NCBI GenBank assembly: GCA_030429235.1
Contig: JAUIDB010000014.1
Location: 62,001 to 126,000, forward strand
Source of the DNA: Thermoanaerobaculia bacterium
GTDB lineage: Bacteria; Acidobacteriota; Thermoanaerobaculia; Multivoradales; JAIOJS01
Length of the DNA: 64,000 nucleotides
Direction: 5' to 3'
Position 1 is the first letter of the stretch, and each line of letters opens with the position of its first letter. The translations under genes were made by a program, and so were the position numbers. The notes under the pieces are model-generated. The model was not told the DNA's origin, ran no database searches, and saw only the letters and a list, made by a program, of their open reading frames with translations. This document shows positions 42,881 through 47,456 of the stretch, in pieces.

Positions 42881-44916
42881 TGCAGTTCTCGTGGGAGTGG
42901 CTCGGCGAGTACGTCGAACTCGGTGATGACCTCGAGGCCGTGGCTCAGGCCCTAACCGACGCTGGATTGGCGGTCGAATTGGTCGAGGAGGTAGGCGAAG
43001 ATCGCGTTCTCGACATCGACATCACGACCAATCGTCCCGACTGCATGAACTACGTCGGTCTGGCCCGAGAAGTAGCGGCTTTGCGCGGCGTACCGCTCCG
43101 CCAACCAGTGGCAGGCCTGCCGACGCCACAACCGGGACCGGACCACGACGTGGTGACGATCGAAGTCCCTGAGCTGTGTCGGCGCTTTGCCGGGCAGGTG
43201 ATCGGCGGCGTGACCGTCGGAGAGAGTCCCGATTGGCTCAAGCGCCGACTCGAAGCGATCGGACTCCGGCCCATCAGCAATATCGTCGACATCACCAACT
43301 ACGTGCTGTGGGAGACGGGGCAGCCCCTCCACGCCTTCGATTTCGACACTCTGATCGATCGTCGTCTGGTCGTTCGTCAGGCCACGGCCGGAGAGCGGCT
43401 GACGACGCTCGACGGCGAAGAACGAACGCTCGACGAGACGATGGTGGTGGTCGCCGACGGAGCGCGCGCCGTCGCCCTGGCCGGGGTCATGGGCGGGCTC
43501 GACACCGAGGTGACCGACCAGACCACGACGATCCTCCTGGAGGGAGCGTGGTGGGATCCATCGAGCGTCCGACGGACCTCGAAAGAACTCGGGATGCATA
43601 CCGATGCTTCCCACCGCTTCGAGCGCGGATCCGACCCGGAAGCTTGCCGCGCCGCGATCGAGCGGGCGACGGCTCTGGTGCTCGAGTTGGCGGGAGGTCA
43701 GCTCCTCGGTAAGACGATCGACGTCCGCGGGACCGAACATGGGCCGATCGCACCCATCGAACTGTCACACGACAGGCTCGAGCGTTTTGCGGGCGTCGAG
43801 ATTCCGCGTCCGGAAGTCGAGGAGCGTCTGAAGGCGATCGGTTTCGACCTACGACCGCACTCCGAGGGCTGGATGGTCGAGCCACCTTCCTGGCGTCGGT
43901 TCGACGTGGTCGAAGCGGCGGACTGCTACGAAGAAGTTCTCCGGTTGATCGGATTCGATCGGGTTCCGGCCGCTCTTCCGCCCTCCGAGGGACCCGATGC
44001 ACCCGAGATTCCGATCCACGCGTTGCGACGTCAACTGCGCGATCGACTCGCCGCGGCCGGCTACGCCGAGGTCATTAACTACGGCTTTTACGGTGCTGCG
44101 CAGGACGCGTTGCTGCCGCCACTGTTTGGAGATCGTCCCGCCCTGGCGGTCGAGAATCCCCTTTCGGAACTGTACCACCTGATGCGCCGCAATCTGTTGG
44201 CCGGGGTGGTCGAGAACGCTCGGTTCAACCGCCGACGCAACCAAGAGGCCGTACAACTCTTCGAGTTCGGTCACGTCTTCTGGCGCACTGCCGATCGGGA
44301 ACCAAAGGAGCGCGAGCACGTGGCTCTGGTCCTCGGCGGCAGATTAGGCACTCCCTGGGAACGCCAACTGGAGTTCGATCTGTTCGACCTCAAGGGGGCT
44401 GTCGAGCTTCTCGCCGAGACGGGGGGGGTGGAACTGGTGGCCCGTCCGGCCACGATCTCCGGTCTCCTCCCGGGTGTCGCGGCCGAACTCACACTGAACG
44501 ACGAGGTCGTCGGGATCCTGGGAGAACTCGACGAGCCAGCCGGTGAGGCGTATCCCCTGTTGGTGGCGGAGCTCTGGCTGGATAGTCTGTTGCCGCAGCC
44601 CGAACCACCGAAGGTCGAGGTCCCACCCCGTCACCCCGGGGTCGCCGTGGACTTCACCCTGACCCATCCACTGGACGTCAGTTTCGCCTCGATCTCCGCC
44701 GCGATCGAGGAGAGCGCTACCCCGGACCTCAGCTCGTTCTGGCTCGAGGGCCGCTACCAGGGCCAGGGGGTGCCGAGCGGAGCCGTCAATACGACGATCC
44801 ACTTCGAATACAATGCCTCCGACAGATCCCTGACCCAGGAGGAGGTCAACGAGCGACAGAAGCTCTTGTCCGATCAGCTGATCGCGCGGTTCGGCGTGGG
44901 CGGTACCGCCTCTTGA
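42880..44916 (+). CDS. pheT: phenylalanyl-tRNA synthetase beta subunit lacking the OB tRNA-binding domain
   Basis: PheT (678 residues from ATG 42880; the longer in-frame opening lies inside pheS) is about 110 residues shorter than the usual 790-800. The missing part is the EMAP-like OB domain inserted after about residue 39 in standard PheT: here the first helix (MQFSWEWLGEYVELGDDLEAV) runs straight into DITTNRPDCMNYVGLAREVAAL. The B3/B4 editing region (RPISNIVDITNYVLWETGQPLHAFD), B5, the catalytic-like core and the FDX-ACB domain at the end are present. The enzyme should still be active. Confidence 0.95.
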   Translation: MQFSWEWLGEYVELGDDLEAVAQALTDAGLAVELVEEVGEDRVLDIDITTNRPDCMNYVGLAREVAALRGVPLRQPVAGLPTPQPGPDHDVVTIEVPELCRRFAGQVIGGVTVGESPDWLKRRLEAIGLRPISNIVDITNYVLWETGQPLHAFDFDTLIDRRLVVRQATAGERLTTLDGEERTLDETMVVVADGARAVALAGVMGGLDTEVTDQTTTILLEGAWWDPSSVRRTSKELGMHTDASHRFERGSDPEACRAAIERATALVLELAGGQLLGKTIDVRGTEHGPIAPIELSHDRLERFAGVEIPRPEVEERLKAIGFDLRPHSEGWMVEPPSWRRFDVVEAADCYEEVLRLIGFDRVPAALPPSEGPDAPEIPIHALRRQLRDRLAAAGYAEVINYGFYGAAQDALLPPLFGDRPALAVENPLSELYHLMRRNLLAGVVENARFNRRRNQEAVQLFEFGHVFWRTADREPKEREHVALVLGGRLGTPWERQLEFDLFDLKGAVELLAETGGVELVARPATISGLLPGVAAELTLNDEVVGILGELDEPAGEAYPLLVAELWLDSLLPQPEPPKVEVPPRHPGVAVDFTLTHPLDVSFASISAAIEESATPDLSSFWLEGRYQGQGVPSGAVNTTIHFEYNASDRSLTQEEVNERQKLLSDQLIARFGVGGTAS

Positions 44917-44936
44917 GGGGAAACTCGGAGGACGCG

Positions 44937-45164
44937 ATGGAAGCACCCTGGCTGAACGAACTCGAGGATCGGGTCCGCCAAGCGATCAAGTTGATCGAGC
45001 AACTGCGGGACGAGAACGCCCGGCTCCAGGCAGAAGTGGCCGAGTTGAAGGAAGCCGAAGCCACCGCCGAGGACAACAGCCAGTGGGAAGCCGAGCGCGT
45101 CGAGGTCCGACAGCGCGTCGAGGCGCTAGCTGAGAAGCTCGAGACGTTGCTGAACGCCGAGTAG
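44937..45164 (+). CDS. short coiled-coil protein, ZapB-like
   Basis: From ATG 44937 (GGAGG five bases upstream; a TTG at 44913 has no ribosome site) the gene encodes 75 residues that are one coiled coil: LNELEDRVRQAIKLIEQLRDENARLQAEVAEL and a second helix VRQRVEALAEKLETLL. The size and heptads resemble ZapB, a partner of ZapA and FtsZ. zapA lies 140 nt downstream, supporting this. Coiled coils share little sequence identity, so the assignment rests on size and place. Confidence 0.65.
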   Translation: MEAPWLNELEDRVRQAIKLIEQLRDENARLQAEVAELKEAEATAEDNSQWEAERVEVRQRVEALAEKLETLLNAE

Positions 45165-45305: not shown

Positions 45306-45602
45306 ATGAGCGATACTGCGACAAAGACCACTCGTCTGGAGATCTTCGGCGCCGAGTACACCGTTCGTGGGGATCATGACAGTGAGCATCTGGAGGAGTT
45401 GGCGAGCAAGGTCGACGGAGACATGCGGCAGATCGCTGCACAGCTTCCGAGAGCCGACACCGCTCGTCTCGCAATCCTCACGGCGCTCAACATCGCTGAC
45501 GAACTGTTCCAGTGTCGGCAGCGAAAGGACGGGGATAGAACAGAGATCAACCAGCGTTTGGCGACGCTTTCGGACCAACTGGGCGATGCCCTGGAGGCCT
45601 GA
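45306..45602 (+). CDS. zapA: cell division protein ZapA
   Basis: ZapA (98 residues) promotes FtsZ bundling at the division site. It matches the family: a short N-terminal beta region (TTRLEIFGAEYTVRGDHDSEHLEELASKVDGDM) and the helical dimerisation part (LAILTALNIADELFQCRQRKD). ATG 45306 is preceded by GGAGAACC; the longer frame from 45225 has no ribosome site. The order zapB-like, zapA, 6S RNA, rny is the recognisable layout for this region. Confidence 0.85.
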   Translation: MSDTATKTTRLEIFGAEYTVRGDHDSEHLEELASKVDGDMRQIAAQLPRADTARLAILTALNIADELFQCRQRKDGDRTEINQRLATLSDQLGDALEA

Positions 45603-45627
45603 GAGCCGATCCGACGCCGGTGCTGAC

Positions 45628-45633
45628 GATACT
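45628..45633 (+). promoter_or_regulatory. -10 box GATACT for 6S RNA
   Basis: GATACT ends seven bases before the predicted 5' end of the 6S RNA closing stem (CGAG at 45641). No clear -35 is seen. Confidence 0.4.
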
Positions 45634-45640
45634 GACGAAT

Positions 45641-45842
45641 CGAGTTCATCCCCTGTACGGTTGGTGATGAGTCGAGCACTGTAGAACCTACACTAATGTT
45701 CTGGGATTCCGGATCCCGGAGGTCTGTGCCAGCCACGCTTCGACGGGGACGCTAACGACCTTCGGGGAGGAGACCCACCTGGTTTAAGCCAGGTTCTAGG
45801 CAGACACTCACACGGCCGCGCGGGGGATGATTATTCGGCTCG
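45641..45842 (+). ncRNA. ssrS: 6S RNA (candidate)
   Basis: 6S RNA mimics an open promoter and binds RNA polymerase. The 291-nt gap between zapA and rny can fold into a long rod. Closing stem: TCATCCCC (45646-45653) with GGGGATGA (45823-45830), flanked by CGAG/CTCG (45641-45644, 45839-45842). Next stems: TGAGT (45668-45672) with ACTCA (45806-45810), and TAGAACCT (45682-45689) with AGGTTCTA (45791-45798). Beyond these lie a small hairpin GGGAT-TCCGG-ATCCC on the 5' side, a terminal arm closed by GGTCT/AGACC, and an alternative 3' hairpin ACCTGG-TTTAAG-CCAGGT preceded by a C-rich segment, as in known 6S RNAs. Length about 200 nt and a place directly after zapA are typical. Exact ends are approximate. 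Confidence 0.72.
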
Positions 45843-45893
45843 ACCGCAGCCCCAGCGATCCGCACCCCACTTTCGCCCGACTGGGGGTATACC

Positions 45894-47456
45894 GTGGATC
45901 TTCTCACTCTAGTTGGCTCGGGAGTCGTCGCGGCACTCCTGGCACTCGCCATCTACTGGCTCTTTCTGAAGCGCGCGGCGCAACGCCTTCTGGCCGAGGC
46001 CGGAGAACGGGCCCGGCGCTTGACAGAGGAAGCGGAACGCGGCGGTCGTGCCAGGATGAAGGAAGCCGAAATCGCCGCCAAGGAGCTGTCCCTTCAGGCA
46101 CGCAGCGAAGCCGAGGAAGTCGCGCGGCGCGAGCGGGGTGAACTCGACTCCCTGGAACGCAAGTTGCGCGGTCGCGAAGAGTCCTTGCACAAGCGGCAGG
46201 ATCAACTCGAGGGGCGGGAACGCGAGGTGCGGGATCTCGAGAAGCGACTGACCAAGATCGAACGCCGATACTCTGATCGGCAGACCGAACTCGATCAGCT
46301 GGTCGAGGAGCAGCGGTCCAAACTGGCGCAGGTGAGCGGCCTGACGGTGCAGCAGGCGAAGGAGAGCCTGATCAAGGACCTCGAGGACGAAGCACGGCTC
46401 GACGCCGCCAACCTGGTCAAGCGGATCGAGGACGAAGCCCGCGAACAGGCCAACCGTAACGCCCAGCGAATCATCGGGGTCGCGGTACAGCGCGGAGCCT
46501 CCGACTACGTGTCGGAGACAGCGGTGTCCGTCGTGATGCTGCCCAGCGATGACATGAAGGGCCGGATCATCGGTCGCGAGGGGCGGAACATCCGCGCCCT
46601 CGAGATGGCCACCGGGGTCGATCTGATCGTCGACGACACGCCGGAGGCCGTGATCCTTTCCGGCTTTGACCCCTTCCGCCGGGAGATGGCGAGAGTCTCT
46701 CTCGAGCGGTTGATCGCCGATGGGCGGATCCACCCGGCGCGCATCGAGGAGGTGGTAGAGAAGGTCAAGGCCGAGTTCGACGAGAAGATCACCGAGGAGG
46801 GCGAAGCGGCACTCCTCGAACTCAAGATTCCCGAGATGCATCCCGAGTTGGTGAAACTGCTCGGTCGACTTCGCTATCGCACCTCGTACGGCCAGAACGT
46901 CTTGCAGCATTCGAAGGAGGTGGCGTACCTGGCCGGGACCATGGCGGCTGAACTGAAGGCCAACGTTTCGGTGGCGCGTCGCGCCGGGCTGGTGCACGAC
47001 ATCGGCAAGGCGGTCGATCGCGAGATGGACGGTGGACACTTGGAGATCGGGATCGAACTCCTCCGAAGGTACGGCGAGAGCGAGGACGTGATCCACGCCA
47101 TGGCCTGCCACCACGGCGACTACGACCCCGAAACCGTCGAGGCGGTGTTGGTGACGGCAGCCGATGCTCTGTCGGCGGCACGTCCCGGTGCCCGGCGCGA
47201 GGTCCTCGAGTCTTATGTCAAACGACTCGAACGGCTCGAGGAGATCGGGGCCGGGTTCGACGGCGTCCAGAAGTGTTTTGCCATCCAGGCGGGGCGGGAG
47301 ATCCGGGTCATCGTCGACAGTCGGAAGATCCCCGACGAGAAGGCGGTCTGGTTGTCGCGCGACATCGCCAAGAAAATCGAGGCTGAACTGACCTACCCTG
47401 GTCAGATCAAGGTCACGGTGATTCGAGAAACCCGCTCGATCGAGTACGCCCGATGA
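45894..47456 (+). CDS. rny: ribonuclease Y
   Basis: RNase Y (520 residues) is a membrane-anchored endoribonuclease that starts mRNA decay. It has an N-terminal membrane span ([23 protein letters not shown]), a long coiled coil (about 30-200), a KH domain ([31 protein letters not shown] in parts), and an HD domain with the metal pair VHDIGKAVD. The start is GTG 45894. It is followed by ymdB with a 4-nt overlap. Standard length. Confidence 0.96.

Follow-up and report, generated by a model that had tools for sequence, protein, structure and literature searches.

6S RNA is a small RNA of widespread occurrence; it imitates an open promoter and sequesters RNA polymerase while cells are at rest. In E. 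coli, its gene has zapA as its upstream neighbour.

In this organism, synthesis of the product RNA (pRNA) starts at U44, the helix adjacent to the bubble opens, and a 9-bp hairpin on the 3' side then contributes to release (PMC8876501). The 6S-1 RNA of B. subtilis carries a shorter 3' bubble hairpin of 5–7 pairs, which may already form in the free RNA (PMC8876501). In proteobacteria, ygfA adjoins the 6S gene; the Actinobacteria possess Ms1, a structured RNA that resembles 6S and likewise binds RNA polymerase (PMC9130861).

The window analysed here is the whole stretch of 64,000 nucleotides from a Thermoanaerobaculia bacterium (Acidobacteriota), and all positions refer to it unless another contig is named. 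We are almost certain that positions 45641–45842 hold the 6S RNA gene of this organism, and that it is an ordinary member of the family.

Identity and surroundings of the gene

The features of the locus are as follows:

45306–45602, + strand: zapA, the upstream neighbour (PF05164, 3.7e-22)
45628–45633, + strand: GATACT, a weak candidate for a −10 box (relatives have an A+T-rich zone at this offset, the motif itself not being fixed)
45641–45842, + strand: 6S RNA gene (ssrS), approximate extent (full-length RF00013 match at 45647–45830)
45894–47456, + strand: rny (RNase Y), the downstream neighbour (PF12072, 4.7e-43, plus KH and HD domains)

From three long-range stems, a central open region, a GATACT box and a competing 3' hairpin, the first-pass annotation had read the zapA-rny gap as a probable 6S RNA locus, and this is borne out by a full-length family match, covariation and conserved synteny. 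A search with the Rfam 6S model, which it had suggested as a check, gave a match of 75 bits (E = 6e-13) against a curated cut-off of 46.4 bits, spanning positions 1–187 of the 187 in RF00013. When the whole window was scanned against all Rfam families, RF00013 was the single match besides three tRNAs, and at 45647–45830 no RNA family except 6S rose above its cut-off. The gene is present in a single copy; a search of the genome found no second one. The 202-nt stretch also folds more stably than expected by chance, with a z-score of −4.5 against dinucleotide shuffles, none of which (0/200) folded as well.

The gap, estimated beforehand at near 300 nt, measures 291 nt (45603–45893), and between the end of the Rfam match and rny, which share a strand, there are only 63 nt. 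All 50 loci examined within the order have zapA upstream and rny downstream of the 6S RNA, the end of the zapA homologue lying 22–106 nt from the RNA. Among 30 further members of the phylum with strong 6S matches, zapA adjoins the RNA in 27 and rny in 21. The zapA profile used for these counts was made by iteration and also caught ZapB-like coiled-coil ORFs further upstream; its hits adjoining the RNA were strong (about 1e-17 or better). The placement of the organism in Acidobacteriota, class Thermoanaerobaculia, agrees with the nearest named relatives of its RNase Y, which are those of a Thermoanaerobaculia MAG (86% identical) and of Candidatus Multivorans thiocomprendens (a partial match at 83%).

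A small ORF upstream of zapA (44913–45164, + strand) matches ZapB (PF06005, 2.5e-10), giving the gene order zapB-zapA-6S-rny-ymdB in the window. Similar small coiled-coil ORFs are found upstream of zapA in many relatives.

Expression of the RNA is predicted. A simple sigma-70 scan found no complete promoter at the locus, where no intrinsic terminator was found either, including between the 6S RNA and rny. The GATACT box had been described as ending 7 nt before the 5' stem, which needs correction: from its end at 45633 the distance to the stem (45646) is 12 nt, and 7 nt is the distance to 45641, the first base of the annotated stretch. Relatives show an A+T-rich zone about 8–20 nt before the start of the Rfam match. 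As a fixed promoter motif GATACT was rejected, being unconserved even in a relative of the same genus.

Long-range stems and covariation

The rod is made up of the following parts:

45646–45653 with 45823–45830, + strand: outer closing stem (96.7% of cells paired in 49 relatives)
45668–45672 with 45806–45810, + strand: middle stem (AU/GC and GC/AU exchanges in many relatives; four of five pairs predicted unaided by RNAalifold)
45682–45689 with 45791–45798, + strand: stem P2 beside the central bubble, its 5' strand being the predicted pRNA template
45703–45776, + strand: upper arm with terminal hairpins, a putative upstream-promoter mimic (Rfam alignment, pairs counted)

The three long-range stems put forward from the sequence are perfectly complementary, pairing TCATCCCC with GGGGATGA in the outer stem, TGAGT with ACTCA in the middle stem and TAGAACCT with AGGTTCTA in P2. 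Covariation, the other check suggested at that stage, was assessed on 49 members of the order, aligned by plain MAFFT and without structure. Compensatory double changes were found at seven of the eight outer and three of the five middle pairs. Of the two outcomes named in advance as refuting a 6S RNA, a missing model hit and a lack of compensatory changes, neither occurred. Across the 49 relatives, pairing is retained at 91.9% of cells for the 21 pairs of the three stems. Changes on both sides occur in eleven pairs, compared with 6.1 expected by shuffling and 2–8 with slid partners, and the doubly changed cells over the three stems number 61, whereas shuffling gives 17 on average; common ancestry is not taken into account in the shuffles, and these are counts of sequences rather than of events. 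P2 yields little covariation evidence because its GAACC/GGUUC core is almost invariant in the 49 relatives, 32 of which lack the eighth pair of the stem.

Without a supplied structure, RNAalifold recovers the same rod from the aligned relatives. The RNA has the architecture of 6S, that is, a covariation-supported rod of ~180–200 nt with a closing stem, a central bubble and a terminal arm. Helix 4 of the Rfam upper arm (45714–45722 with 45759–45766) is only 55% paired across relatives in the MAFFT alignment, which probably reflects variation and misalignment in this arm, and RNAalifold pairs part of the arm in a register slightly shifted from that of Rfam. In one relative, the terminal loop of the 6S RNA is enlarged by an insertion of about 25 nt.

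The closeness of rny on the same strand, the retention of this order in relatives and the lack of a visible terminator in between would also suit a structured element of the rny mRNA, acting as a leader or in processing (as in RNase Y autoregulation), that merely resembles 6S. We consider this very improbable in view of the full-length match to the 6S model. Moreover, rny went undetected beside the RNA in nine of the 30 other phylum members with strong matches, and the RNA is therefore not tied to rny. Co-transcription with rny followed by trimming would still be compatible with a 6S RNA. That the stretch is a 6S pseudogene, or a chance fold devoid of function, is exceedingly improbable: the compensatory changes and the invariant bases of the central bubble extend across the 49 relatives, the single copy is conserved, and the fold z-score speaks against it as well.

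Central bubble and the competing 3' hairpin

Two further features of the 6S RNA lie at the central bubble:

45691, + strand: predicted pRNA start (template base), placed by its position relative to U44 of E. coli and 3 nt past the last CC of P2
45777–45794, + strand: 3' central-bubble hairpin ACCUGGU-UUAA-GCCAGGU, of seven pairs including one G-U, which competes with P2

P2 is conserved, as is the presumed position of the pRNA start on the 5' side of the central bubble, as expected of a 6S RNA; C45691 is invariant in 49 of 49 relatives. The pRNA predicted from this base is 5'-GUAGGUUCUACAGUG, and short products would be expected to start with 5'-GUAGGUUCUAC. Also on the 5' side of the bubble, TGTAGAACCTACA (45680–45692, + strand) may form a small hairpin of five pairs before and over the predicted start. 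Most relatives have TGTAGAACCAACA at these positions, which weakens it.

On the 3' side, the proposed competition between P2 and the hairpin ACCTGG-TTTAAG-CCAGGT could be located precisely: the hairpin overlaps the 3' strand of P2, whose AGGU also pairs within it. The further suggestion of the first-pass annotation, a 3' rearrangement like that of known 6S RNAs, holds as a possibility, since folding with the 5' template strand (45674–45691) blocked keeps the 3' hairpin formed and P2 open; the E. coli 6S RNA, a comparison sequence confirmed as annotated ssrS, gives the same result in silico. In a free-RNA energy model, the hairpin state of the 6S RNA in the window is favoured over P2 by about 2.5–2.8 kcal/mol, the two states of E. 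coli 6S are nearly equal in the same calculation (−80.5 and −80.2 kcal/mol), and the hairpin state is favoured in 11 of the 49 relatives, the median favouring P2 by 2.2 kcal/mol; the direction of the balance in a single species is not dependable because the model reaches its limit with energies this small. In one genus-level clade (L018, L020 and others), the 3' hairpin is interrupted by a central mismatch. A crude search for P2 and the hairpin in the 30 other phylum members picked the wrong helices in several, hence no count is given.

The RNA resembles E. coli 6S (SsrS) in its full-length RF00013 match, its central-bubble rod and the zapA gene upstream, as well as in a P2 whose CC precedes the pRNA start by three bases and a 3' hairpin built in part from the 3' strand of P2. 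It differs in its downstream gene, which is rny rather than ygfA, and in its 3' hairpin, which has seven pairs (one G-U) rather than nine and is favoured by the model in the free RNA. A 3' bubble hairpin that may form in the free RNA is shared with B. subtilis 6S-1, whereas the overlap with the 3' strand of P2 follows the E. coli design. Unlike Ms1, which binds the core enzyme in Actinobacteria, the RNA described here matches 6S.

The genome encodes a housekeeping sigma-70-type factor, the partner expected of a 6S RNA. Two RpoD-type sigma factors, both encoded outside the window, have RpoD_Cterm matches above the NCBIfam cut-off (L181, G000:C70:204935-205645; L182, G000:C86:75829-76536). Going by the family, the rod with its central bubble would mimic an open promoter, and the RNA is predicted to bind the holoenzyme of the housekeeping sigma factor and RNA polymerase and to keep it from promoters when growth stops. 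As nucleotides return, the polymerase would copy the 5' side of the bubble, from C45691 through P2, by analogy with E. coli. On the same analogy, pRNA synthesis would open P2, and its 3' strand would then pass into the ACCUGG/CCAGGU hairpin and help to eject the polymerase. The free-RNA model prefers the 3' hairpin over P2, and the order of events is therefore harder to assign than under the E. coli model. We regard it as evenly balanced whether the E. coli-type release switch known from gamma-proteobacteria also operates in Acidobacteriota, with the one genus-level clade that has lost a hairpin pair possibly following another route of release.

Distribution and significance

Within the order, 6S RNA was identified in 56 of 59 genomes, of which 50 (including the genome studied here) matched at once and six more with laxer filters. 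The other three have no intact rny locus in their assemblies, rny being missing or at a contig end. True loss of 6S was considered for the nine order members initially unmatched and rejected, given the six that matched with laxer filters and the three in which the locus is cut off or missing. Elsewhere in the class, G125, also unmatched initially, has a 6S RNA above the cut-off with laxer filters; G188 and G218 have weak 6S matches near rny (44.5 and 34.5 bits, respectively), and no 6S match was seen near rny in G241. In the sample of the phylum, 6S RNA is present in at least 129 of 199 genomes, a lower bound owing to the strict filters used.

Knowledge of 6S RNA itself is unchanged by this finding. 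What it does confirm is the presence of a global transcriptional regulator in a little-studied phylum with few cultured members. A 3' hairpin switch of the E. coli type in bacteria other than gamma-proteobacteria, found in most but not all relatives, would be of mild interest. The zapA-6S-rny synteny can be used to find 6S RNA where sequence searches are weak, and the roughly 50 natural variants, differing in the predicted stabilities of P2 and the 3' hairpin, would be useful for testing how 6S RNA releases the polymerase.
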